64,000 nt of DNA, taken from NCBI GenBank assembly GCA_024280115.1, contig JAJRQT010000098.1:1-64000 (forward strand). Direction: 5' to 3'. The position numbers and the translations under genes are program-made. Positions 48,789 to 59,937 of this stretch are shown here, piece by piece. The stretch comes from Bacteroidota bacterium (lineage in GTDB: Bacteria; Bacteroidota; Bacteroidia; Cytophagales; Cyclobacteriaceae). Position 1 is the stretch's first letter. Every line of letters begins with the position of its first letter. The notes beneath the pieces are model-generated. The model was not told the DNA's origin and made no database searches. It was given only the letters and a program-made list of their open reading frames with translations.

Positions 48789-50042
48789 TCATGAGCTTCG
48801 CCTTTGTTTTATTACCCTGTTAGATACAATAAATGAATAAAAAAGCAACATGGCGATGCCAAAAAACAGCATAAGCGATTCGACAAATAGAGATATATTG
48901 AGGGACCTAAGTATCTCTAAATTTAATAATTGAGGGAAGGATTTTAGACCGATAGTCATTTCCATAAGTACAATCCCAACCAATATCAGTCCTAACCCAA
49001 TCTTTGAAATTGTACCGGAAGTTGAAAGAAAATTTTTAACAATAAAAAGGCCGATTAAAAAACAACTGGTAAATCCTAAAAATGAAAGATGCAAATAGGT
49101 CATGATGGCTTCACGGTTGAAATATGCAAACTCAGATATAAATGGCAGCGGCGATAAAAACTGCATCATAATTTTCAATAGCCAAGAGCATAAGGCAATT
49201 CCAAAAAACCATTTTACCCAACCATTGATCAATATCTTACCTATCTTAGCTTGCACAAATAATATTTTCAATAATATGAAACCTGCCCATAATTGAAGCA
49301 CTGCGCCGATAAATCCGATGATATAAACAACGCGGTGTGGTCCAAAGCTAAGTGTAGAAAGCGCATATGTGAGAATTATGGCAAATATTAAAAGTCTATA
49401 AATCATCTTTCCTTCTGATGCATTATAATTTATCCCATATTCGTCCAACATTTTAAACAACAACGCAAAAACAGCCATAGTAAACCAGCCATTATACTGA
49501 AAATGGAGGTAAAAATAAATAGCCATATTGTATAATGCAGAATCCTTCATATCCATCACAACGACAGGCCCAAGGGTTAGAGGTCCCAGTCCGGATATCA
49601 GCATAAAAACCAGCCCGGCTTTCATAAATTTTGAGGCTATATTTTTCTTGTCAGTATTCTTGAAAAATAATACCGCAAAAATCAAAGACAAGATCATTTG
49701 AAATGTCGAAAATATAATTGAAGGCGCTGCATAGCCCATAAATGGGAATGTCGCCAGCATTCCTAAAACAGCAATTTGCAGATATATGATCAATCTATAG
49801 CTTCTCCTGTTAATCCTCCTGCTTTTAGGCATTAGCATCCCAAAAGCTAAAGTTGCCAGTGCCATAAATACCCAACCTAAAAATCCGGTATGAGAATGCG
49901 CGTGTGTCCAATTGCGCACTGGAAAATCAGAAATTGGAAATACAGTATTATACCTTAGTAATACCCCAATGGCAGCCGTAACCAAAAAATTCGCTCTAGC
50001 GAAAAATAGTCCTGTACGAATTACTCTACCTTTTGAGATCAC
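48789..50042 (-). CDS. Heme-copper-oxidase-subunit-I-like membrane protein
   Basis: 417 residues with about twelve hydrophobic helices. Histidines fall in places that recall NorB/oxidase subunit I: NWTHAHSHTGFLGWVF (about 44-59), IYFYLHFQYNGWF (about 179-191), FGPHRVVY and MTYLHLSFLGF (about 313-323). It is smaller than real NorB and the full six-histidine set is not assured, so it may be a heme protein of uncharacterised type. The GTG start overlaps the NnrS-like stop by 4 bp (GTGA), so it is translated from the same transcript. The operon promoter carries the shared Fnr-like box, pointing to NO or low-oxygen physiology. Confidence 0.6.
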   Translation of the reverse strand: MISKGRVIRTGLFFARANFLVTAAIGVLLRYNTVFPISDFPVRNWTHAHSHTGFLGWVFMALATLAFGMLMPKSRRINRRSYRLIIYLQIAVLGMLATFPFMGYAAPSIIFSTFQMILSLIFAVLFFKNTDKKNIASKFMKAGLVFMLISGLGPLTLGPVVVMDMKDSALYNMAIYFYLHFQYNGWFTMAVFALLFKMLDEYGINYNASEGKMIYRLLIFAIILTYALSTLSFGPHRVVYIIGFIGAVLQLWAGFILLKILFVQAKIGKILINGWVKWFFGIALCSWLLKIMMQFLSPLPFISEFAYFNREAIMTYLHLSFLGFTSCFLIGLFIVKNFLSTSGTISKIGLGLILVGIVLMEMTIGLKSFPQLLNLEILRSLNISLFVESLMLFFGIAMLLFYSFIVSNRVIKQRRSS

Positions 50043-51091
50043 GCAACTTTTCTTTGTTTACTTATTATAATAATAACTAAGTTAATAAAAAAAAGTATGA
50101 TGATGACAGCATTTAACATTCCGGAAATGGTACGATATTGAGATTCCATCAATAATTCCGATATAATTCTAAAGGCAAGAGAAATTTGCAATAATATTGC
50201 CCAGATGTACAACGTATCATGAAAGGGTCTGATTGTTAATCCAGCAACTCCGGGAAATATGATTGGAGCATGGGCAAAAATCATCGAAAAGGTAAACCCG
50301 AGAAAAAATGCATGCAACATCGCATCATAATTATACAGTGTTTCAAAATCTACAATCATTAAAAACCCACAAACCATTAACCAGAAATACCCTGCTAAAA
50401 GCAAGGATCCCGTATAGCGATGCATACCCTGGGCTTTAACCGATTTTCTCGCAATGTCATATTTCAATAACCAAATTGCCATGAGAATCAATCCTGCACC
50501 GGAGATGAATTTTCCAATCGCATGATAAGGTAAGATGATCCCAACCATAAATACAGAAATTGCTATGATCATGGTAACCTTTTTTCGCCTTGTCTGAGGT
50601 AGAAACTTGCTAAGTTCAAGACGCTCTCCAAAAACTGTCAATAATATAAAGACGATCCACCATGGAGCAGCTTGAGGATAAAATGGAGTAACTATCATAA
50701 TGATATTACCCACAGCCCAACCAACAGCACCGACCATCATGACATAAAAGTAATATTCACCAAATCGATTTATGAGATCGATATAAATGTATATTAGACC
50801 AAGACTTCCAATAGTAAGTAAACTCATGGCAATAGCTTGCTTTCCCAATATGAAGAAAACCAAACTAAGTCCGGAGATCACTGGAATTACATATAGCCAC
50901 TTCTTCTTTAATGCAACGATTCGCTCAAGGACAATCAACGTTCCAAGAAAACTTCCGGTCATCAATGCGCCGTGTTCGCCAGCCACCTCTCCAATTGGAA
51001 TAGACCATCCTATTCTGAAAAGACCAGATAATATTCCGACAACCAAAGAGATCAGTACAAATGGAAGCACAAAAAATATCTTCTTATTCAT
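50039..51091 (-). CDS. NnrS-like membrane protein
   Basis: 350 residues with ten or more transmembrane helices. GEVAGEHGALMTGSFLGTLIVLER (about 34-57) and MLHAFFLGFTFSMIFAHAPIIFPG (about 256-279) match the histidine-bearing helices of the NnrS family, heme- and copper-containing membrane proteins tied to nitric-oxide stress tolerance. It is the middle gene of a three-gene unit: cupin 3 bp upstream, oxidase-like protein overlapping downstream. Substrate and mechanism of NnrS proteins remain unclear. Confidence 0.75.
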   Translation of the reverse strand: MNKKIFFVLPFVLISLVVGILSGLFRIGWSIPIGEVAGEHGALMTGSFLGTLIVLERIVALKKKWLYVIPVISGLSLVFFILGKQAIAMSLLTIGSLGLIYIYIDLINRFGEYYFYVMMVGAVGWAVGNIIMIVTPFYPQAAPWWIVFILLTVFGERLELSKFLPQTRRKKVTMIIAISVFMVGIILPYHAIGKFISGAGLILMAIWLLKYDIARKSVKAQGMHRYTGSLLLAGYFWLMVCGFLMIVDFETLYNYDAMLHAFFLGFTFSMIFAHAPIIFPGVAGLTIRPFHDTLYIWAILLQISLAFRIISELLMESQYRTISGMLNAVIIILFFINLVIIIISKQRKVA

Positions 51092-51094
51092 AAC

Positions 51095-51430
51095 TTAGTC
51101 TTTAAGCATAATCAGGCACATTTTAAAAGCTTCTCCAGCATGTAAGGCATGAGGAATATTTGCCGGCATAATGATTATTTCACCTTCACCGACATCGTAT
51201 TTTTTTCCGTCAATAGATACTTCAGCAATACCCTCTACAATCTGTACAATAGCATCAAAAGGAGCTGTATGCTCACTCAAACCCTCTCCTTTATCAAAAC
51301 CGAAAAAGGTAATATTACCACCTTTATTTTTTATAAACTGCTTTGAGACGATACCCCCTTCTGCGATACTAATGCTTTCTTTTAAGCTGTAAACCGTTGC
51401 CGGTTCGAAAGATTTCTTTTCCATATTCAT
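51095..51430 (-). CDS. Small cupin-domain protein
   Basis: 111 residues, a single cupin barrel: FGFDKGEGLSEHTAPFDAIVQIVEG (motif 1, His about 58, Glu about 70) and GEGEIIIMPANIPHALHAGE (motif 2, two His about 93-96). It can bind a metal; partners in nitrosative-stress operons include similar cupins of unknown function. First gene of the cupin / NnrS-like / oxidase-like unit. An Fnr-like box lies at 51490-51506 and a -7-like element at 51461-51468. Confidence 0.8.
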   Translation of the reverse strand: MNMEKKSFEPATVYSLKESISIAEGGIVSKQFIKNKGGNITFFGFDKGEGLSEHTAPFDAIVQIVEGIAEVSIDGKKYDVGEGEIIIMPANIPHALHAGEAFKMCLIMLKD

Positions 51431-51460: not shown

Positions 51461-51506
51461 CTAATTTAGGGGTAAATATAAAATCCTTTTATGACTGAAA
51501 TCACAG
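51461..51506 (-). promoter_or_regulatory. Fnr-like box and -7 element of the cupin/NnrS operon
   Basis: TATGACTGAAATCACAG (51490-51506) matches the shared box; on the minus strand TAAATTAG (51461-51468) resembles TAnnTTTG. Box centre to -7 centre is 33.5 bp, close to an activator position near -41. The box lies about 60 bp upstream of the cupin start. Confidence 0.6.
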
Positions 51507-51533
51507 ACTTTATAAAATATTTTTTAATCCCGG

Positions 51534-51581
51534 AAAAAAAACGTGGTGGCTGAAGATCGAAAGTAACGGTTGCTATCCACC
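51534..51581 (-). terminator. Possible terminator at the end of the nos operon
   Basis: On the minus strand GGTGG (51577-51581) and CCACC (51545-51549) can pair across a long loop, followed by GT8 (51534-51541 reads A8 on the plus strand). A weak stem but a good U tract, placed 10 bp after the nosY stop. Confidence 0.4.
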
Positions 51582-51589
51582 CAAAACTA

Positions 51590-52372
51590 CTAAAAATCCT
51601 TCTTAAAGCTTTTTTTAAGAATTAGAAGTACAGGAACTACAGTCCAAATTGTTAAGGCTAAAAAAGAAATCAACATACCGGAATTATTGCCGAAAAATTT
51701 ACTGAAAACCGCTCCCGTATATCCCATCAAGGCTGAAATGTCCAATTTCAACATAATTAAAATGCGGCTTAAATCAATTGGATTGAATAGCGACATGGCA
51801 ATTGCAAACTTTTCTATTGGGTATTCCTGCAGGAGAAAGAGCGAGAGCAGAAAAATTCCATCATATATAAAAGCCATAAACAACCATACCAAAATGGCCA
51901 TACCAAAGCCCTTTAGCCTGTTTTCATTTACCAATGCTATGTAAAAAGCTAAAGCAGTGAAAATAAAGGTGAGAAATACGCCAGATGTTATTAAAATCAA
52001 CAGACTCATTACCTGACCGGATAAAAATAATCCATATATAATAAACGGCAAACTCATACCGAGTAGCAAACTCAATGAAAGCGATATGCTGATACCTAAA
52101 AACATACCGAGAAATATTCTTTTCCTCGGCACGGGCTGCGCTAGTAAAAGCTCTATAAATTCACGGGAATTATAGAAATTCATCACTCCGAAAATTGTCC
52201 CGATAAGAGGGGTAAGAATAAAAGTGATGTTCATTAAGCTGACGATGGCTTTGGATACATCATGGCTGAGGTATAGCAGCACCATTCCAGTAATAAAATA
52301 AAAAAGGAAGTAAATAATACTCCAACGGCTCCGGATCAGATCAAAAAAACTATATTTAAGAATTTTCAGCAT
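51590..52372 (-). CDS. nosY: NosY-type ABC transporter permease
   Basis: 260 residues with six transmembrane helices of the ABC-2 type (FFDLIRSRWSIIYFLFYFITG at the start; helices to about residue 255). It forms the membrane part of NosFY, which works with periplasmic NosD in delivering what NosZ needs for its copper-sulfide cluster. It overlaps nosF by 17 bp. Last gene of the nos unit. Confidence 0.88.
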   Translation of the reverse strand: MLKILKYSFFDLIRSRWSIIYFLFYFITGMVLLYLSHDVSKAIVSLMNITFILTPLIGTIFGVMNFYNSREFIELLLAQPVPRKRIFLGMFLGISISLSLSLLLGMSLPFIIYGLFLSGQVMSLLILITSGVFLTFIFTALAFYIALVNENRLKGFGMAILVWLFMAFIYDGIFLLSLFLLQEYPIEKFAIAMSLFNPIDLSRILIMLKLDISALMGYTGAVFSKFFGNNSGMLISFLALTIWTVVPVLLILKKSFKKDF

Positions 52373-53072
52373 ATTCTTTTTCTAAAATTTTCGCAATTGC
52401 CCGTTCTAGGTTTTCCTCTTGCTGCGCTTCCTTCATTTCACTATGAGTACCTCTAAAATAAACCTGACCCTCTAGTAAAAACATTAACTCATCAGCCAAT
52501 TCTTCAACGAGATTCATGATGTGTGTCGTCACTAAAAACGTGATTCCTTGCTCTTTCCTTTCCAGTATCAGGTCCTTAAATCTAATTAATGCGATGGGAT
52601 CCAGGCCTGTAGTTGGTTCATCTAATATATACACAGGACATTCAAACATGAAGGTCAGGACAATATTTACTTTTTGCCTGGTGCCTCCGGAAAGTTGCCT
52701 GAGTTTTTTATTTAAAAAACTATCAAGGCTGAAACGCTCTATTAATGGCTCAGAATTCCCTTTCTCTCCCCTTATATCTTCTATGAGTTTGAATAATTCT
52801 TTCACCTTGAGATTTTCTGGAAATTTCGCAATCTGTGGCAGATATCCAATTCTTCTTCTGTATTCCCAATCCTTGTAAATAGGTTTTCCATCAAAGAAAA
52901 TTTCACCGCCAGAAGGGATCACCAATCCAAGTATCGATTTGATTAATGTAGTTTTCCCGGAACCATTAGGCCCTAATACTGCTGTGATTTTTCCTTCAGA
53001 CAGTGAAAAATCAAATCCTTTCAGCACTTCCAGCCTTCCAAAACTTTTCCGAATCTCTTTTATTTCAATCAT
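52356..53072 (-). CDS. nosF: NosF-type ABC transporter ATPase
   Basis: 238 residues: Walker A GPNGSGKTTL (about 34-43), Q-loop region GYLPQIAKFPENL, signature LSGGTRQKV (about 125-133), Walker B CPVYILDEPTTGLDPIAL (about 144-161), and switch His in VTTHIMNLVEE. All catalytic residues are present. It powers NosY, overlapping its gene by 17 bp and nosD by 8 bp, so tight coupling is expected. Confidence 0.92.
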   Translation of the reverse strand: MIEIKEIRKSFGRLEVLKGFDFSLSEGKITAVLGPNGSGKTTLIKSILGLVIPSGGEIFFDGKPIYKDWEYRRRIGYLPQIAKFPENLKVKELFKLIEDIRGEKGNSEPLIERFSLDSFLNKKLRQLSGGTRQKVNIVLTFMFECPVYILDEPTTGLDPIALIRFKDLILERKEQGITFLVTTHIMNLVEELADELMFLLEGQVYFRGTHSEMKEAQQEENLERAIAKILEKEYAENS

Positions 53073-54312
53073 AAATATTCAACTTCATCCTGGGTCTTTC
53101 ATCAAGCAGTGATTGAGGAGTAAGTACCGGAGCCACCTTTTCTGCCATATTAATCATATCAATAAAAAAACTTCTTAAAAGTATAATGGCTTCGGGAATT
53201 TTACCAATAAGGTAGGAAAATAATCTCACAGGCCGGTAGGGCACGTCGCCGATGCCATCCTTGTCTAAATCATATCCGGCATATTGATCCCAATAGTTAT
53301 CGTGGTAATCGTTTCTATTGCGAGAACTGTTAGTCGTCAGGTCGAACGTGTTGGATATAAAATTGTTATAGGCAATCTCATTATCCATGCAGTTGCCAAA
53401 TATATTCATAGCCCATCCGTTGCTTCTAAATTCATTATTGATGATTTTAATTCTATTAGATCCGTCAGCAAAAATCGCAGTAGTATTATTTTGAAATTTA
53501 TTCCCAGATAGCTCCCCGTCATATATTTCCTTGAACAACAATCCATAATTTGCAGTACCCCAATTATCTACAAAATTATTATTTTTCATTAGTATAAACT
53601 CGGAATACATCACTGCCACACCCGTGCCATTGTTTTTAAAAGTATTCCCAATATAATCGTCATGATTGGAAAACATAAAATGCAAACCATATCTTAGATT
53701 GCCCTCGCTGATATTTTCGATAATCCTGCTTTTCTCCACAAATTCAAAATAAATCCCATCCCTATGACCCGTAATCTGATTTTTCTCAATCAATATATCC
53801 TCACAATACCATAGGTGAATACCATTTCCGGAATTTACTTCATTTTTCGCTACACTTTTTAAATAATTATTCCTTATAACTATATGATCACTTTTTTTGA
53901 GATATATTCCAAAATACGTGTCAAGCAAAATATTATCTTCGATAATGCAATAATCTCTGTTGTCAATCTTGATCCCGGCCCAGTCTTTTATATAGGAGAG
54001 CCCCACATTCTGAACCTGAAATCCTTTAAAAAGTACGCTGTCAGACATAATCGTGACAATCTCAGATTTATGATCCCCATCGATGACAGGATGATCAATT
54101 CCTATGATATAAAGTGGTTTATCAATCTGAATATCATATTCGACATAGCGACCTGGACTCACAACAATGGTATCAAATGGTTGCGCATTTTCGATGGCCA
54201 TTTTGATAGAGCTTAGCCTCCCATTCAGGCTCACGGTGATGGTTTTGGAAAAAGCGAAATGGCATACAAAAGCCAAAAACAAAACCAATATGTTTTTGAA
54301 ATTGCATGCCAT
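53065..54312 (-). CDS. nosD: NosD periplasmic copper-cluster assembly protein
   Basis: 415 residues from ATG 54312, chosen because it gives a clean signal peptide (MACNFKNILVLFLAFVCHFAFSK); the longer TTG start at 54357 would overlap nosL. The body is a right-handed parallel beta-helix (CASH domain) with many short rungs such as IVIRNNYLKSV, ILIEKNQITGHRDGIYFEFV and YIGNTFKNNGTGVAVMY. The C-terminal NRNDYHDNYWDQYAGYDLDKDGIGDVPYRP is the NosD signature. It partners NosFY in maturing the CuZ site of NosZ in the periplasm. Overlaps nosF by 8 bp. Confidence 0.92.
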   Translation of the reverse strand: MACNFKNILVLFLAFVCHFAFSKTITVSLNGRLSSIKMAIENAQPFDTIVVSPGRYVEYDIQIDKPLYIIGIDHPVIDGDHKSEIVTIMSDSVLFKGFQVQNVGLSYIKDWAGIKIDNRDYCIIEDNILLDTYFGIYLKKSDHIVIRNNYLKSVAKNEVNSGNGIHLWYCEDILIEKNQITGHRDGIYFEFVEKSRIIENISEGNLRYGLHFMFSNHDDYIGNTFKNNGTGVAVMYSEFILMKNNNFVDNWGTANYGLLFKEIYDGELSGNKFQNNTTAIFADGSNRIKIINNEFRSNGWAMNIFGNCMDNEIAYNNFISNTFDLTTNSSRNRNDYHDNYWDQYAGYDLDKDGIGDVPYRPVRLFSYLIGKIPEAIILLRSFFIDMINMAEKVAPVLTPQSLLDERPRMKLNIYD

Positions 54313-54340
54313 AGATACAACAATAATATTTCTTTTAAAC

Positions 54341-54799
54341 TTATTTATTTTTATCAAAATCTGCTCTCAGTTCTTCCCAACTCCATATCGATCCCGCATT
54401 TTGTTTCTGCTGACTGATCGCTTCTTCACGGTCTTTAAACGGATTTAGAAACATACCCATTGGGCTGGGCATATTTTCACTTTTTAAATAGAAACAATCC
54501 CTTACATTGATTAATTCACCAGGATGATCATAGGTATTGGTTAAGATAAGCTTCAGTTTTGTTTCATCCTCTACTCGCTTATCAATATAATTGACAAGGC
54601 ATTCAACAGCATCAAACTTATATACTTTTCCTTTTTGTGTTACGATTTCTCCACCAAACCTCTGATCTACAATCGACATCCTGCAAAAATCACATTTATC
54701 TTCTCCATAGAGAATTGGTTTACTCTCAGGATTGCAGGCATTCAGTAAATAAATGCCTGCCACTGCAAATACAAATATTAACTTCTGATTTATTCGCAT
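54341..54799 (-). CDS. nosL: NosL copper chaperone lipoprotein
   Basis: 152 residues. Lipobox LLNAC (cysteine about residue 22) directs it to the membrane. The copper-binding motif CDFCRMSI (about 37-44, CxxC-x-M) is followed by FDAVECLVNYI. NosL delivers Cu(I) to NosZ. It lies between the 192-residue membrane protein (8 bp upstream) and nosD. Confidence 0.92.
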   Translation of the reverse strand: MRINQKLIFVFAVAGIYLLNACNPESKPILYGEDKCDFCRMSIVDQRFGGEIVTQKGKVYKFDAVECLVNYIDKRVEDETKLKLILTNTYDHPGELINVRDCFYLKSENMPSPMGMFLNPFKDREEAISQQKQNAGSIWSWEELRADFDKNK

Positions 54800-54807
54800 A
54801 TTTTACT

Positions 54808-55386
54808 CTAATTAATGTCTTGTTTTCCTTTTAAAAAGGAAGCTACAAATGAAAGTATCAACGATAATCCTATAAAAATTGAGCCGTAATATGGATATGA
54901 TATCGCATTGAAATTCAATAGCATTTTTGAACCAAATAATGGGGGTTGATAAGCTTGACCCGGCACCTTGATGGCCGCCTCATCTGAGAGATTGTGCCCA
55001 TAATCATACTCCCACAGATAGAAATCATAGATGCCCAAAATACCTAAAATTATCATGATAATTCCCCATGTAATCCATAGTTTTTTATTGTTGATCAAGC
55101 CAAATATAACTCCCAGTAGTGCCATTCCAATAATGACTTTTGGGAAATATTTTAATTCCGGAATAGATTCAGGCTCGATCATTTTCATGCCCACATAGTG
55201 ATTTAATATATTGATATTCTGCAAAGTTCCGGGCTCATCCCCCCCCAACTTGTTGATCCAAATGTACATGGTGATTCCCTTAGGATACTGAGGCGCCTCC
55301 AAAGTAATTCTCCATATTGGAGATAAAAATGTCCCTAAAAGTAAAACAGAACCGAGAATGAATAAAATTTTGGGCAGAGATCGCAT
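54808..55386 (-). CDS. Uncharacterised membrane protein of the nos cluster
   Basis: 192 residues with an N-terminal helix (7-27), a conserved-looking periplasmic part (YPKGITMYIWINKLGGDEPG, INILNHYVGMK, IPELKYFP, about 33-82) and three further helices (about 85-100, 107-130, 167-188). The segment NHYVGM recalls Bacteroidota proteins usually found between nosZ and nosL but with no assigned role. His/Met-containing stretches (LNHYVGMKMIEP) could bind copper; that is inference. It starts 220 bp downstream of nosZ, beyond a terminator-like hairpin, and is 8 bp from nosL. Confidence 0.7.
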   Translation of the reverse strand: MRSLPKILFILGSVLLLGTFLSPIWRITLEAPQYPKGITMYIWINKLGGDEPGTLQNINILNHYVGMKMIEPESIPELKYFPKVIIGMALLGVIFGLINNKKLWITWGIIMIILGILGIYDFYLWEYDYGHNLSDEAAIKVPGQAYQPPLFGSKMLLNFNAISYPYYGSIFIGLSLILSFVASFLKGKQDIN

Positions 55387-55522
55387 TTCTAAAAATTTGA
55401 AGGTTATTAAATCATATGATACTAAAAAATAAAATTGATATTAAAGACTGGTAAAAACAAATCCTATCTATCTTGTTCTACTCTTTTACACCTTATATTT
55501 TTATCGAATCCTAAGTTATAAA

Positions 55523-55558
55523 TAAAACAGGCATCACTCCGAATTGAAGTGATGCCTG
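55523..55558 (-). terminator. Hairpin just after nosZ, partial terminator
   Basis: CAGGCATCACT (55528-55538) pairs perfectly with AGTGATGCCTG (55548-55558). On the minus strand it is followed by TTTTATTTAT. Located 50 bp beyond the nosZ stop and before the other nos genes, it would reduce transcription of the accessory genes relative to nosZ or stabilise the nosZ mRNA 3' end. Confidence 0.8.
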
Positions 55559-55607
55559 AAGATGGAAAATATCCATCACCAATAAATAAACAACACAATC
55601 AACTCAC

Positions 55608-57587
55608 TTATTCTCCAAAGGCCTCATCTCCGAGACGCCATTTCATTTTCGTATTGGCATTTTCAGCCGAAACTCTTATATATCCCTGCATTTCCTGATG
55701 AAGCGCTGAACAGAAATCTGTACAATAAAACGGATAGACTCCTTCTGCTTTTGGCTCCCAGACCAGGGTTTCTGTTTGACCAGGCATAATCAGCAATTCT
55801 GCATTGTTAGCTCCCATCACTGCCAATCCATGAGGCACATCCCAATCTTGCTCAAGGTTGGTAATATGCCAAAAGACCTTATCTCCTACTTTAATTCCCT
55901 CAATATTATCCGGTGCGAAATGGCTTCTTATCATAGTTCCGTAGATATGCACTTCCTTGCCTTTTCTAACTACCTTAGTATCTGCTTCTGTCAAGGCTTT
56001 GTACTTATGTTCGTTTTCTTCGAGCCGGAAGAATTTCACTTGTTTATCCATGATTTTGGAGGCGAGAATACCCTGCGCATAATGAGGTTCGCCCATCGTC
56101 GGAAAGTCCAGCAAAAGTTCCATTTTATCACCGGAGATATCATAAAGTTGAGCGGAATGTGCCAATTCAGGGCCTGTGGGTAAATACCTGTCTTTGGTGA
56201 TTTTGTTCATAGCAATTAAATATTTACCATTCTCCCAGGGTTTCATCGATCCTCCGCCAGGAATACTCAGGTGACCAATTGAATAGTAAGCTGGAATCCT
56301 GTCAACAACTTCGAATGTTTCAAGGCTCCACTTCACTACTTCAGATGATATAAAGAACGAAGTATATCCATGACCCCTGCCATCAAATTCCGTATGAAGT
56401 GGTCCTAAACCTCCCATCTCAACCGTACCCACGTGAACTGCATCATAGTTAAGAACCGGGATGCCATCAATTTCATCATCAAATTTTTTGGCTTCGATTG
56501 CCGCAAGCATTTTCTCAAATGAATGAACCGTTAAATCAGCTGACAATTTACCATTCCCTACAATATATTCTCCTGTAGGACTTACATCAACGCCGTGAGG
56601 TGACTTTGGTGTGGGTAAATAATATACCAATCCGGGACATTCCGATGGAATAAGGACTTTTACACCTTTCATTTTAGTGGAAGTACCAGTATGGGTTTTA
56701 TCGCTATAATAGTTATGATAATACTCTGAAGGCCACTCCTTAAACTTACCCTGGGCAATGTACTCTTCGGCTTTTTTCCAGTTTACGGCAGCAATATAAT
56801 CTTTATCATATTGTGAAGCATTCTTTTCTTTCAATGTATTTGCCTGTTCTACATTATAACTAGTGAAAAAAGTCCATCCATGAGAAACACCTTTACCACA
56901 ATGCGCAAGATCATAGTCATATCCAGGTGCTAATATCTGAAATGCGATATCCATCTCACCCGGTTCCTGCCCACCACTGATGAATGTAAAAGTACCTTTG
57001 AAGTTTTCTTTGTAACTGTCAATTGGTACATCTTTTTGTGGAATAGGAACACTAAATCTTGTAGCTGCCACCAGGTACTCAGTGTTTTGAGTCGGATATG
57101 GAGATGCGTGGCTCCCTCCTGAGTTTGGAATCTCAATGATCTCCGTTGTTTCAAATGTAGTAAGATCGATCCTTGCAATCCTTGGAGTGTTGTTAGCATT
57201 GATAAAAAGGAAATTTCCATCATGCACCCCCTCCGTTTGTGAAAGCTTTGGATGGTGAGAATCATCCCACGGCACAAAACCATAGGTAGTCATCAGCATA
57301 GGCTTGGTTTCTTCATTGAAACCATATCCTTTTTCACCATCTACACTAAAGACGGGTATTGTCTTTAGCAATCTGCCAGATGGCAACCCGTGAACAGTAA
57401 CCTGTCCGCTAAAACCCCCTGAGAAGAATTCATAATACTGGTCATACTCACCCGGAGCTACATAAACTTTTTCAGCAGCGCTTGAATGGCTCATAGCGCC
57501 ACCTGTGCTGTTACCATTACCACATCCAGAATAAATGAAGAGTGAGGCAGTGATTAATAAAGCAAAAATGAAAGTAGTTGATCTCAT
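55608..57587 (-). CDS. nosZ: Nitrous-oxide reductase, clade II (lipoprotein/Sec type)
   Basis: 659 residues. The N-terminus is a Sec lipoprotein signal (cysteine in YSGCG, about residue 22), not a Tat signal, which marks clade II NosZ. The seven-bladed propeller carries CuZ histidines in WDDSHHPKLS (about 107-116), VSHGWTFF, SPHGVDVS, GPLHTEFDGRGH, IGHLSIPGG and EPHYAQG. The C-terminal cupredoxin CuA domain has DVPHGL and FYCTDFCSALHQEMQGY (about 618-634), the complete C-x3-C-x3-H-x2-M set. It reduces N2O to N2 in the periplasm. All ligands are present, so it should be functional. Co-transcribed with the upstream c-type cytochrome (42 bp gap). Confidence 0.96.
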   Translation of the reverse strand: MRSTTFIFALLITASLFIYSGCGNGNSTGGAMSHSSAAEKVYVAPGEYDQYYEFFSGGFSGQVTVHGLPSGRLLKTIPVFSVDGEKGYGFNEETKPMLMTTYGFVPWDDSHHPKLSQTEGVHDGNFLFINANNTPRIARIDLTTFETTEIIEIPNSGGSHASPYPTQNTEYLVAATRFSVPIPQKDVPIDSYKENFKGTFTFISGGQEPGEMDIAFQILAPGYDYDLAHCGKGVSHGWTFFTSYNVEQANTLKEKNASQYDKDYIAAVNWKKAEEYIAQGKFKEWPSEYYHNYYSDKTHTGTSTKMKGVKVLIPSECPGLVYYLPTPKSPHGVDVSPTGEYIVGNGKLSADLTVHSFEKMLAAIEAKKFDDEIDGIPVLNYDAVHVGTVEMGGLGPLHTEFDGRGHGYTSFFISSEVVKWSLETFEVVDRIPAYYSIGHLSIPGGGSMKPWENGKYLIAMNKITKDRYLPTGPELAHSAQLYDISGDKMELLLDFPTMGEPHYAQGILASKIMDKQVKFFRLEENEHKYKALTEADTKVVRKGKEVHIYGTMIRSHFAPDNIEGIKVGDKVFWHITNLEQDWDVPHGLAVMGANNAELLIMPGQTETLVWEPKAEGVYPFYCTDFCSALHQEMQGYIRVSAENANTKMKWRLGDEAFGE

Positions 57588-57629
57588 GTTTCTATAGTTT
57601 TGTTAAAAAACGGTTTTTAAGTGTTCAAT

Positions 57630-58109
57630 TTATAATGTCCTGAAATATTCAAGAACTGCCCTCGCGTCGTCTTCCGTCAAACCCTGATTCGCCATCACAG
57701 TGTTATATTTCATCAACAATCCCCTTCCTATCGGGTCTTTCATAGCCATCTCTTCCGGGTTAAGAATCATATTCATAATCCATTCAGGAGTTCTTCTTTC
57801 AAAGATACCTGTTGGAGCCGGTCCTAATTTTTCCTTATCCGGAGCATGGCATGCAGTACATTTCAATACATAGATATCTTCTCCTTTCTTTGCCATTTCA
57901 GCATCGAGTTCCCCCAATTCCACTTTGGTTATCGGACCACGACCTTTTTGGTTTTTCCAGTCAGCCTGCGCCTCTTCGTATGTCATAGGTTTCGCCTTTG
58001 GCGGCGGAGCAAATTTGCCCTTCTTCTCCTTGTCGCCAGATCCACCACCACAAGCACTCATGAATGCTACAACCACTATGGCTAAAAATATTGCTCCTTT
58101 TGATTTCAT
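57630..58109 (-). CDS. c-type cytochrome lipoprotein, probable electron donor to NosZ
   Basis: 159 residues with a lipoprotein signal (AFMSACGGGSG, cysteine about residue 20), a Lys/Pro-rich linker (28-45) and one heme c domain: CTACHAPDKEKLGPAP (heme motif CxxCH about 84-88) with a distal Met in YNTVMANQGLTEDD. A membrane-anchored monoheme cytochrome directly upstream of a clade II nosZ is the usual arrangement (often called nosC1/C2) and should pass electrons from the quinol pool to NosZ. An Fnr-like box precedes it. Confidence 0.9.
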   Translation of the reverse strand: MKSKGAIFLAIVVVAFMSACGGGSGDKEKKGKFAPPPKAKPMTYEEAQADWKNQKGRGPITKVELGELDAEMAKKGEDIYVLKCTACHAPDKEKLGPAPTGIFERRTPEWIMNMILNPEEMAMKDPIGRGLLMKYNTVMANQGLTEDDARAVLEYFRTL

Positions 58110-58148
58110 ATTATTTTATTTTAATTAACTATTATTTCAATTTTAGTG

Positions 58149-58195
58149 CGAATTTATATGTCGTACCAGAGGTAGGTATATGATTTGAATCATAA
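58149..58195 (-). promoter_or_regulatory. Fnr-like box and -7 element of the cytochrome-nosZ operon
   Basis: TATGATTTGAATCATAA (58179-58195) is a near-perfect dyad of the Fnr type (TGAT-N4-ATCA). On the minus strand TAAATTCG (58149-58156) resembles TAnnTTTG. Box centre to -7 centre is 34.5 bp. The box lies about 70 bp upstream of the cytochrome ATG. Confidence 0.7.
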
Positions 58196-58254
58196 AGTAA
58201 TGTTAGAGGTCTATATCATCCATTAAACACAAATAAACTCTGTTTTCAGACATA

Positions 58255-58854
58255 TTATTTTAAATAAATTTTATGTTGCCGGATCTCCAACTTCCCATCT
58301 TTTTGCAGCTTTTTGACTGTCCGGATAACGGTTTCAACTCTCAATCCCGTCATGTCGGCAATTTGTTGCCTTGTAAATGGTACGTAAAACTGTGATTTCT
58401 CTTCTTCTGCAGAATTGTCCCGCAGGTAATTCAACAGGGTCATTATCACATGGTCAGGCCAATAAGAAGATATTTCCTTTAATAAAATTGACTTGTAACG
58501 TAGGCGGTTGGACAACAGGGAATTAAATTTCCATTGAATGGTGTGATTTTCCTTTAAAAGCTCAAAAAAAGCTTCCTTTGGTAATCTACATATTTCTGAT
58601 TTTTCCGTAGCTACCGCATTGTTCGGATACGAAAAATCTCCAAAAAGAGGCGGCTCGCCAAAACTTTGACCGGCTTTAAATATACCCTGAATAAATTCCT
58701 GGCCGTTTTCGCTGTAGCTAGACATTTTTACCGTACCACGAATCACCTGGAAATAGAATGATGCAGATTCATCTTCCAAAAAAATAAATTCATCTTTCTG
58801 GACCTCGAAAAAATATGCTTTCTTCTCGGCCAGCAATTCTCTAGGTATAATCAT
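58255..58854 (-). CDS. Crp/Fnr-family regulator next to the nos operon
   Basis: 199 residues: cyclic-nucleotide-binding-like domain (about 15-125; GQSFGEPPLFGDFSYPNNAVA near residue 67) and a winged helix (about 140-197) with recognition helix in MTGLRVETVIRTVKKLQK. No N-terminal cysteine set, so it is not an iron-sulfur Fnr; it resembles heme-type or ligand-type (DNR/NnrR-like) regulators in size, though no heme ligand can be named. It is encoded upstream of the cytochrome-nosZ unit in the same direction, and is the obvious candidate to bind the three shared boxes. Confidence 0.85.
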   Translation of the reverse strand: MIIPRELLAEKKAYFFEVQKDEFIFLEDESASFYFQVIRGTVKMSSYSENGQEFIQGIFKAGQSFGEPPLFGDFSYPNNAVATEKSEICRLPKEAFFELLKENHTIQWKFNSLLSNRLRYKSILLKEISSYWPDHVIMTLLNYLRDNSAEEEKSQFYVPFTRQQIADMTGLRVETVIRTVKKLQKDGKLEIRQHKIYLK

Positions 58855-58941
58855 GGAGTTGCACTTCTATAAACCGGCACTCAAATATTGACCATTTTTT
58901 TAAAAATGCCTACATATACTGATAAAAAAATACAAAGAACC

Positions 58942-59868
58942 CTAACGAGATCTAATGCTTTTAAGGGCGGTTACGACTTTGGCAAATAAGATATTATTTT
59001 CGAGGTGCATATGAAAATGCATATCATATTCAAATTTTTTAAGCTCTTTATAAAGGATTTTAAAACCCGGGCTGCTCTCTTTGGGGGCCACATAATTGTT
59101 GCAAAAATTACGCAATACCCTTAGGGAAGAACCCGTTAAAATATGATCTTCCTCCATCCAATCTATGGCATCATCAAAATCATTGATATCTTTCAATCCA
59201 CCTTTTCTTAACGCAATTTCCAGCTTTTTATATGAGGGGAAAACAATATTTTCTTCGTCCTTTAGATGATCTTCCAGTTCAACTTTAAACTCCGAAAATC
59301 TCTCCCTGATCATTGGCAACTGTGGATGAGTAGCAGCGTGTGCCACAACTAAATGATCAATAAGGTTTCCCAATTCCGGAATTTGTTGCTTTACAAAAGT
59401 ATGATGGTTATTTTCAATATAATCAATAGTGAAACTGATGGACCACCGGTCAGTTCTTAACGGATTAACTATAAGTTGTTTTGATGATTTTATTTCTTTG
59501 TATATGGATTGGGCTTCTTTATTTACATCACTCAACTTCATATCACCCAATTGATAATATGGTATTCCTTTTTCTTCAAGAATGTCAATGGCTAACGGAT
59601 ATTGTTTTAATATATCATTTATAGTAAGGTTAAGTGCTTCTGTCTTCTTTATGGAAATTCGCCATATTTCCGGTCCATTTTCCAAATCAGACCAATTAAA
59701 AAATCCCTCCTTTTCAATTTGAAAAAGCTTGCTGAGTGGAGCCAGGCTATGATCACTGATGAGTTCAAGTTTCTGTCCGTCATTAAGATCGTCAAAAAGA
59801 TTTAAAATTATTTTTATTCGAAATCTCTTATCTATCTCCCTAACATCCAATATTTTATTTCCACTCAT
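58942..59868 (-). CDS. RIC/YtfE-like di-iron repair protein with DUF2249 domain
   Basis: 308 residues in three parts: a DUF2249 domain (about 5-75; LDVREIDKRFRIKIILNLFD, GPEIWRISI), a short ScdA/DUF1858-like helix bundle (about 78-125) and a hemerythrin domain (about 145-300) with ligands in IENNHHTF, HAATHPQLPMIRE, EDHLKDEENIVFP, EEDHILTG and HFHMHLENNI. These proteins repair iron-sulfur clusters damaged by NO or oxidants, or release NO. Oddly, the usual cysteine pair of the ScdA N-terminal domain is missing (GIPYYQLGDMKL). The promoter carries a copy of the shared Fnr-like box. Confidence 0.8.
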   Translation of the reverse strand: MSGNKILDVREIDKRFRIKIILNLFDDLNDGQKLELISDHSLAPLSKLFQIEKEGFFNWSDLENGPEIWRISIKKTEALNLTINDILKQYPLAIDILEEKGIPYYQLGDMKLSDVNKEAQSIYKEIKSSKQLIVNPLRTDRWSISFTIDYIENNHHTFVKQQIPELGNLIDHLVVAHAATHPQLPMIRERFSEFKVELEDHLKDEENIVFPSYKKLEIALRKGGLKDINDFDDAIDWMEEDHILTGSSLRVLRNFCNNYVAPKESSPGFKILYKELKKFEYDMHFHMHLENNILFAKVVTALKSIRSR

Positions 59869-59891
59869 AATTTATTAATGAAAAATACCCA

Positions 59892-59937
59892 CAAATATAT
59901 TCACATCGTAAACCCAACTTTATGACTCACATCATAA
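59892..59937 (-). promoter_or_regulatory. Fnr-like box and -7 element of the RIC-like gene
   Basis: TATGACTCACATCATAA (59921-59937) matches the shared box. On the minus strand TATATTTG (59892-59899) is a perfect TAnnTTTG. Box centre to -7 centre is 33.5 bp. The box lies 53-69 bp upstream of the start codon. Confidence 0.7.

Follow-up and report, generated by a model that had tools for sequence, protein, structure and literature searches.

Crp/Fnr-type boxes at a fixed distance from the -7 element of nos and associated promoters in a Cyclobacteriaceae bacterium, and a cysteine-less Crp-type protein as their candidate regulator

Three promoters in a stretch of 64,000 nucleotides from a member of the Cyclobacteriaceae (Bacteroidota; assembly GCA_024280115.1, contig JAJRQT010000098.1, positions 1 to 64,000; hereafter the window) carry a 16-bp palindrome of the Crp/Fnr type, set at a constant distance from a -7 element that resembles TAnnTTTG. 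One lies upstream of the nitrous oxide (N2O) reductase gene nosZ and the cytochrome c gene that precedes it, one upstream of a gene pair encoding a RIC-like protein and a Crp/Fnr-family regulator, and one upstream of a small cupin gene followed by two membrane protein genes, orf350 and orf417. The palindrome, its fixed spacing, its recurrence at nos and RIC promoters and its over-representation both genome-wide and class-wide can be read directly from the DNA. We consider it fairly probable that the three sites are class II Crp/Fnr operators on sigma-A promoters, and that the N-oxide genes here are controlled mainly by the Crp-type protein encoded among them, which has no conserved cysteines and would control its own synthesis.

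Three boxes and their -7 elements

All three palindromes are on the minus strand. The nosZ-side box (58179..58194) reads TATGATTCAAATCATA and the RIC-side box (59921..59936) reads TATGATGTGAGTCATA, both matching TATGAY-N4-RTCATA in full, and the cupin-side box (51490..51505), upstream of cupin-orf350-orf417, reads TGTGATTTCAGTCATA, with one mismatch. An earlier note on this DNA had placed a site at each of these positions, and all three were found there; the consensus that it gave, TATGAyT-N3-ATCAyAr, covers real sites but is better replaced by 16-bp palindromes near TATGAY-N4-RTCATA. Each box is followed on the same strand by a -7 element. On the RIC side this is a perfect TAnnTTTG, TATATTTG (59892..59899), 21 bp after the box, whereas the elements on the nosZ side (TAAATTCG, 58149..58156, 22 bp after the box) and on the cupin side (TAAATTAG, 51461..51468, 21 bp after the box) have one mismatch each. 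From center to center, box and -7 element are 34 bp apart on the nosZ side and 33 bp apart on the RIC and cupin sides. The fixed distance claimed earlier thus stands, but at 33-34 bp rather than 33.5-34.5 bp, probably because 17-mers had been used. Measured from its near edge, the box lies 70 bp from the start codon of the cytochrome c gene before nosZ, 53 bp from that of RIC and 60 bp from that of the cupin gene.

For CRP and FNR, a site centered at -41.5 is a class II position. The sigma-A -7 box of Flavobacterium, TAnnTTTG, spans -12 to -5 (PMC9723704). If the element lies at -12 to -5 here as well, a 21-bp spacer puts the box at -49 to -34, with its center at -41.5, and a 22-bp spacer puts the center at -42.5.

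Fixed spacing across genomes

The spacing was compared in 80 nosZ loci with flanks of up to 10 kb from named genomes (the best 80 were kept); the nosZ-bearing relatives found were mostly Bacteroidota. The test set held 34 promoter entries, namely 24 nos loci, three RIC promoters (L024, L025 and L060) and the sites of the window's own genome, with one site, on contig C109, entered in both directions. Each nos entry has a box, with no more than one mismatch, in the 300 bp before the cytochrome-nosZ unit (L058 was dropped), and because these entries were preselected for the box, the test speaks on spacing and not on box presence. In 24 of the 34 entries a TAnnTTTG element, one mismatch being allowed, begins 21 bp beyond the box, and in five it begins 22 bp beyond it; in 1000 rounds of shuffling the expectation was about 0.36 for each position, and the maximum at any of them was 4. 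The remaining five entries (C109 forward, L056, L102, L027 and L032) have no -7 element at either distance. With the -7 element placed at -12 to -5, the box center is at -41.5 or -42.5 in 29/34 entries. When the raw 80 nosZ loci were searched for the exact core with an exact -7 element, 20 matches fell at the two right spacings versus 5 over 28 others. The class II geometry near -41 that the earlier note had proposed is strongly supported by this spacing of 21 or 22 bp, fixed across genomes.

Across 247 genomes of the class Bacteroidia, the exact composite of core, spacer and -7 element occurs 383 times, versus 19 times for the reversed pattern, and it is present in 136 genomes. One composite locus from each of 30 genomes was looked at for what lies downstream. 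Three of these composites precede cytochromes like the one before nosZ (L226, L227 and L239) and two precede DUF2249-ScdA_N-hemerythrin proteins (L214 and L230). Other downstream frames encode a COX1-family oxidase (L225), a beta-eliminating lyase of the tryptophanase type (L224), a universal stress protein (L220), NqrA (L237), a di-heme peroxidase (L222) and a cytochrome c assembly protein (L235). Together they look like a general anaerobic or microaerobic set that includes nos and RIC. For 6 of the 37 composite loci the script returned no downstream reading frame; one of the six, L207, comes from the window's own genome and precedes the gene for glyceraldehyde-3-phosphate dehydrogenase (GAPDH), as assigned by Pfam.

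Composite sites in the window's own genome

The strict pattern of the earlier note yields 7 different sites over the 7.22 Mb of the genome (eight rows, one palindrome having been counted twice), versus 1 for the reversed pattern. This is more than chance would give, and 3 of the 7 sites fall within 8.5 kb in the window. Outside it, one strict site lies upstream of norC-norB (named by reading, with Pfam matches to cytochrome c and COX1) and one upstream of a gene for a fasciclin-domain protein. Another, on C109 (L003), lies between an antiporter gene and a 122-aa gene that is followed by a TonB receptor gene. A strict site on C19 was set aside as chance, being inside a reading frame.

The composite ATGAYN4RTCA-N23/24-TANNTTTG gave 7 matches in this genome versus 0 for its reversed form. 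Over all spacings from 10 to 39, there were 7 matches at 23/24 and 10 over the 28 others, with 5 in total for the reversed pattern. The seven composites precede RIC, the fasciclin gene, and genes for pyruvate:ferredoxin oxidoreductase, a methylmalonyl-CoA mutase subunit, phosphoenolpyruvate (PEP) carboxykinase, GAPDH and a small His-rich protein. The promoter of the fasciclin gene, whose product is a secreted protein, has the composite in exact form (L211; G000:C163:5315-5360), and this gene is likely an unrecognised member of the N-oxide set. The architecture also serves central carbon genes, since composites stand before those for GAPDH, pyruvate:ferredoxin oxidoreductase, the methylmalonyl-CoA mutase subunit and PEP carboxykinase (L207, L208, L210 and L213); to judge from the sequence, these may form the anaerobic carbon branch of one promoter grammar.

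Toward the 122-aa gene and the TonB receptor, the C109 site has a -7 element with one mismatch at 21 bp. This composite is only tentative because almost no 5' untranslated region is left before the GTG start. The 122-aa protein has spaced cysteines and its gene lies beside the TonB receptor gene (L003:1102-1467 and 3-935); the pair perhaps serves metal uptake for NosZ.

Conservation at nos and RIC promoters

Conservation was counted with a composite of a box with at most two mismatches, a -7 element with at most one mismatch and a spacer of 21 or 22 bp. For nos, 77 loci were tabulated; L058 (region mis-cut), L067 (contig end) and L092 (genome not searched) were left out. The composite is found upstream of nos in 27 of the 77 loci. 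For comparison, it occurs in 10 of the 1136 windows that lie before other reading frames of these loci. A RIC match occurs in 97/247 genomes, and in the best 30 loci, with starts placed by tblastn as for norC, 10 have the composite upstream of RIC, the window's own included. In the near relatives L024 and L060 the order RIC-Crp-cytochrome c-nosZ is that of the window, and the boxes are kept at both RIC and the cytochrome c gene. L060, from Imperialibacter, and L025, from Fulvivirga kasyanovii, represent cultured relatives whose layout resembles this one.

A candidate regulator without conserved cysteines

The Crp/Fnr-family gene (58255..58854, minus strand) encodes a protein of 199 aa with a domain of the cyclic-nucleotide-binding type and a Crp helix-turn-helix (HTH; TRQQIADMTGLRVETVIRT). 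It follows the RIC-like gene after an 87-bp gap, and the two are probably one transcription unit with RIC first. The description of this gene in the earlier note, as one without the Fnr cysteines, is borne out: the protein has a single Cys, the first 30 residues hold none or one across 23 aligned sequences, and no Cys is conserved among them. The N-terminal Cys cluster and fourth Cys that mark FNR are thus lacking. Nor does the sensor part have an invariant His or Met in these 23 sequences; His135 is present in 13 of them, and no invariant axial heme ligand was seen. The cyclic-nucleotide pocket of CRP has the motif GELGLF...RSA, in which the phosphate-binding Arg-Ser follows GE, whereas the aligned sequences have FGEPPLF...YPAxA, and the window protein has no Arg-Ser-Ala motif. 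Against the NCBIfam equivalog for CRP (NF008732) it scores 56.2 bits versus a cut-off of 266, and it reaches no NCBIfam equivalog cut-off. The absence of a conserved Cys argues against an FNR-like Fe-S cluster as the effector site, and the loss of the phosphate-binding Arg-Ser argues against cyclic AMP. Nitric oxide (NO), acting directly or through a cofactor, is our guess for the effector, because it best fits the linked genes.

Orthologues of this protein, in which the HTH (TRQx(I/L)A...LRVETVIR) is nearly invariant, are found in 28/247 genomes of the class (E <=1.1e-45, the next match being at 8.8e-35) and in 18/79 nosZ genomes (separated from the rest by a drop in score from 140 to 132 bits). 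Their loci, taken as +-1.5 kb and numbering 27 without the window's own, were compared with 54 other Crp/Fnr loci, two of which overlap (L107 and L114). A gene for NosZ, its cytochrome, RIC, a truncated globin, a fasciclin protein or orf417, or more than one of these, is present in 22/27 orthologue loci versus 2/54 paralogue loci, for a gene set chosen after the orthologue loci had been seen; without the globin, for which the query was taken from L122, 19/27 are still linked. Homologues of orf417 adjoin 14 and fasciclin genes 6 of the 27 orthologues. A composite lies anywhere in the locus in 20/27 orthologue loci versus 10/54 others, and genomes with an orthologue (28) have 3.5 composites each versus 1.3 in those without (219). 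The nos composite itself is present in 14/18 nosZ genomes with the orthologue versus 13/59 without it (Fisher p 3e-5, an optimistic value because the genomes compared are phylogenetically related). On the strength of this gene linkage and this co-occurrence with the nos architecture, the window protein is the best candidate for the regulator of the three sites. One box precedes the RIC-Crp pair, so autoregulation is possible.

Some orthologue loci differ in layout. In L119 and L120 (family mates G014 and G215), the Crp gene and a gene read as one for pyruvate:ferredoxin oxidoreductase point away from each other, and no box with at most one mismatch was found in either locus. In L121 and L122 (1465-1480), a box lies downstream of the Crp orthologue, just 5' of the genes for a small membrane protein (L121) and a bacterial globin.

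Proposed mechanism and alternative readings

We infer activation rather than repression, with the 58255-58854 protein as the main N-oxide regulator and its gene as one of its own targets. Under low oxygen and in the presence of N-oxides, a Crp-type dimer would bind TATGAY-N4-RTCATA at about -41.5 (21-bp spacer) or -42.5 (22-bp spacer). The bound dimer would replace the -33 contact of the promoter, contact RNA polymerase and recruit it to TAnnTTTG. Made from its own RIC-Crp unit, the regulator would be autoregulated, and its expected targets would be cytochrome c-nosZ, RIC-Crp, cupin-orf350-orf417, norCB and the fasciclin protein gene. The same grammar would probably be used by other Crp/Fnr paralogues of the cell, at promoters beyond these.

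Several observations weigh against this account, in addition to the relatedness of the genomes and the late choice of the linked-gene set mentioned above. The nos architecture is kept in 13/59 nosZ genomes that lack the orthologue and is missing in 4/18 that have it. Among RIC promoters that have the composite, 8 of 10 belong to genomes without the orthologue, and only 2/8 genomes with the orthologue have the composite at RIC. At norC the composite is found in 2/12 loci, so the norC site of the window's own genome is not a general feature. No such box was found between NosY and the cupin gene in L024, the closest relative, which makes the cupin-side site either lineage-specific or less certain. 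At orthologous promoters, where the earlier reading implied a box, it recurs at part of those of nos and RIC, is mostly lacking at norC and is lacking at the L024 cupin promoter. The box alone is close to background: exact TATGAYN4RTCATA is barely enriched in the window's own genome (8 versus 5 for the control), and TATGAYTNNARTCATA at two mismatches gives 291 versus 187, mostly noise. It is when the spacing and the -7 element are added that the signal separates from the noise. Finally, several paralogues encoded in the same genome combine an N-terminal CxxC with a recognition helix of the same E-x-x-x-R type.

With the window protein included, that genome encodes 11 proteins that score over the cut-off for HTH_Crp_2. 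Receiver-Crp fusions, like the Cys-bearing paralogues, carry a recognition helix of the same type as that protein. One such fusion (352 aa; L034:2435-3490) adjoins a nos cluster and has a palindromic box right after its stop codon, and many Crp matches among the 247 class genomes have a frame length similar to it. Since the recognition helix is of one type in all of these, the simplest view is that of one grammar read by more than one regulator, and several Crp/Fnr paralogues probably share this combination of box and spacing.

An account that overlaps with the preferred one has the paralogues compete for the boxes or share them, so that oxygen signals (through Fe-S proteins like FNR) and N-oxide signals (through the window protein) would be integrated at the same promoters. 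The analysis gives it a minor though appreciable chance. It draws on the presence of one box class in both contexts and of the paralogues in one genome, and on the dual control of Paracoccus nosZ by FnrP and NNR (PMC3541799). Alternatively, the boxes could be genuine class II sites at which a different paralogue, such as a Cys-containing, oxygen-sensing protein like FNR, regulates nos, RIC and the cupin unit, the window protein having other targets or a modulating role. This would explain the architecture in genomes without the orthologue, the general anaerobic and microaerobic genes downstream of composites among the 30 class-wide loci (L225, L224, L220 and L237) and the composites in the loci of own paralogues (L104, L105, L107 and L113), and it agrees with the CxxC-bearing paralogues that have the same type of helix. 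We regard it as rather unlikely, because the linkage to N-oxide genes is largely peculiar to this orthologue group (22/27 versus 2/54) and the nos architecture is commoner where the orthologue is present.

It is improbable in our view that the palindromes overlap the promoter as operators for a repressor. A protein bound at -49 to -34 could block the polymerase, and a negative effect of a Crp/Fnr protein on nosZ has been inferred in Nitrosophilus (PMC11539149), but the near-invariant spacing of 21 or 22 bp fits contact with sigma and alpha and is not needed for occlusion; the repressor reading was rejected mainly on this ground. Coincidence, or promoter DNA that is shared by descent and has no function, has some footing in the relatedness of the genomes and in a pattern partly derived from these very sites, but it is hardly credible and was rejected given the spacing specificity in the window's own genome and in the nosZ loci and the 383 versus 19 composites, before many genes, in 247 genomes.

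Activation by the window protein at class II sites remains the preferred account. The earlier note had proposed that N2O respiration, NO protection and the membrane proteins form one regulon. This is supported only in part: central carbon genes of this genome have the architecture as well and genomes without the regulator use it, and a single closed regulon is further weakened by the missing cupin-side box in the closest relative and the 2/12 count at norC.

Comparison with known systems

Class II activation by FNR and CRP is already known, as is control of nos by Crp/Fnr proteins. In proteobacterial class II CRP/FNR promoters the FNR box is at -41.5. The sites described here resemble these in having a symmetric TGAY-N4-RTCA core at that position, in place of the upstream core-promoter contact. 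They differ in the TAnnTTTG -7 element, which stands where proteobacterial promoters have -10 and -35 elements, and in the outer base of the box, which is A (ATGAY) and not T (TTGAT).

The DNR regulon of Pseudomonas and beta-proteobacteria, with the consensus CTTGATnnnnATCAAG, shares with the present case an FNR-like activator, nor and nos targets, the core and the half-site spacing (PMC1274295). The DNR/NnrR box TTGAT-N4-ATCAA differs from ATGAY-N4-RTCAT, found here, in the outer base, and the part of that article drawn on names no Bacteroidota nos promoter (PMC1274295). HcpR and HcpR2 of Bacteroides and Porphyromonas are likewise Crp/Fnr-family proteins of Bacteroidota concerned with nitrosative stress, but their box is a different one, GTAACnnnnGTTAC (PMC1274295; PMC12750200). 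In most Bacteroides the predicted HcpR2 regulon is hcp only, and Met68 and His149 have been proposed as heme ligands (PMC12750200), whereas the group of the window protein has no invariant His, Met or Cys in the sensor part. At Paracoccus nosZ, FnrP and NNR exert oxygen and NO control of N2O reductase through Crp/Fnr proteins (PMC3541799), much as is proposed here. That system differs in having proteobacterial promoters. Its nosZ belongs to clade I. Nitrosophilus labii has a clade II nosZ and Crp/Fnr regulators, as the window does, but it is a member of the Campylobacterota, the effect inferred there is negative, and no promoter grammar is described in the part of the article drawn on (PMC11539149). 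Searches of one open-licence library, with the terms used, turned up no title or abstract start that describes such a box or spacing for Bacteroidota nos.

Many clade II nosZ bacteria are Bacteroidota. Bacteria with a clade II nosZ are regarded as important in limiting N2O, yet few detailed studies of their nosZ genes are available (PMC11539149). With a promoter grammar that is fixed and can be searched for, candidate regulons can be predicted from sequence. The grammar also singles out a candidate regulator and offers a testable account of how N2O-consuming bacteria may switch their nos genes on. More generally, it gives a way into the control of anaerobic genes in a phylum with promoters unlike the textbook -10/-35 type, and it points to companion genes, namely orf417 and those for the fasciclin protein and the globin. 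To our knowledge, these three are not counted with N2O respiration.

Genes around the boxes

The boxes stand in a nos cluster of the Sec type (clade II), on the minus strand throughout. The product of nosZ (55608..57587), a Sec-dependent N2O reductase, scores 907 bits with TIGR04246 versus a cut-off of 625, and it is preceded by the cytochrome c gene (57630..58109). The genes for a 192-aa protein, NosL, NosD, NosF (an ATP-binding cassette (ABC) ATPase) and NosY (an ABC membrane protein) occupy 51590..55386. NosD scores 422 bits with TIGR04247 versus a cut-off of 300, NosL matches PF05573, and NosF and NosY, with ABC_tran and ABC2_membrane_2 matches, were named by domain and gene order. The RIC/ScdA-type protein (58942..59868), with DUF2249 and hemerythrin-like domains, matches TIGR03652 at E 1.8e-39, below the cut-off of that model. 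The cupin-side box is followed by the small cupin gene (51095..51430), by orf350 (50039..51091), which encodes a membrane protein without a Pfam match, and by orf417 (48789..50042), which encodes a membrane protein of 12 helices with no Pfam family above cut-off.

Structure models suggest that the label "oxidase-like" given to these membrane proteins by the earlier note is correct at the level of the fold. The model of orf417 (predicted local distance difference test, pLDDT, 91.6) matches the nitric oxide reductase (NOR) structure 4xyd with E 1.9e-7 and a template modeling score of 0.77. Its Z scores are 36.1 to a cbb3 subunit (root-mean-square deviation 3.3, 410 residues aligned) and 34.2 to NOR (3.1, 394 aligned). 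In the model, orf417 has the twelve-helix fold of the heme-copper oxidase/NOR superfamily. The match to NorB by hhalign covers only 60 columns. H49, H51, H180 and H318 are invariant and H47 nearly so, and these histidines can be assigned to helices 2, 6 and 10 by helix order only. Helix 7 has no invariant His pair, and a full binuclear center is therefore doubtful. The model of orf350 (pLDDT 78), built from three sequences, appears to resemble the same fold with less certainty than that of orf417, with a VIA-align Z score of 24.7 to cbb3 and a weak Foldseek match (E 0.03). On a more speculative note, and with a good deal of doubt, the grammar of TATGAY-N4-RTCATA, 21/22 bp and TAnnTTTG may serve, across Bacteroidota, Crp/Fnr paralogues with different sensors, of which the cysteine-less branch that does not use cyclic AMP would be dedicated to N-oxides and partnered with orf417 and orf350 as a conserved, uncharacterised NO/O2-sensing or NO-handling pair. 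Homologues of orf417 account for 43 reading frames in the nosZ and Crp loci.

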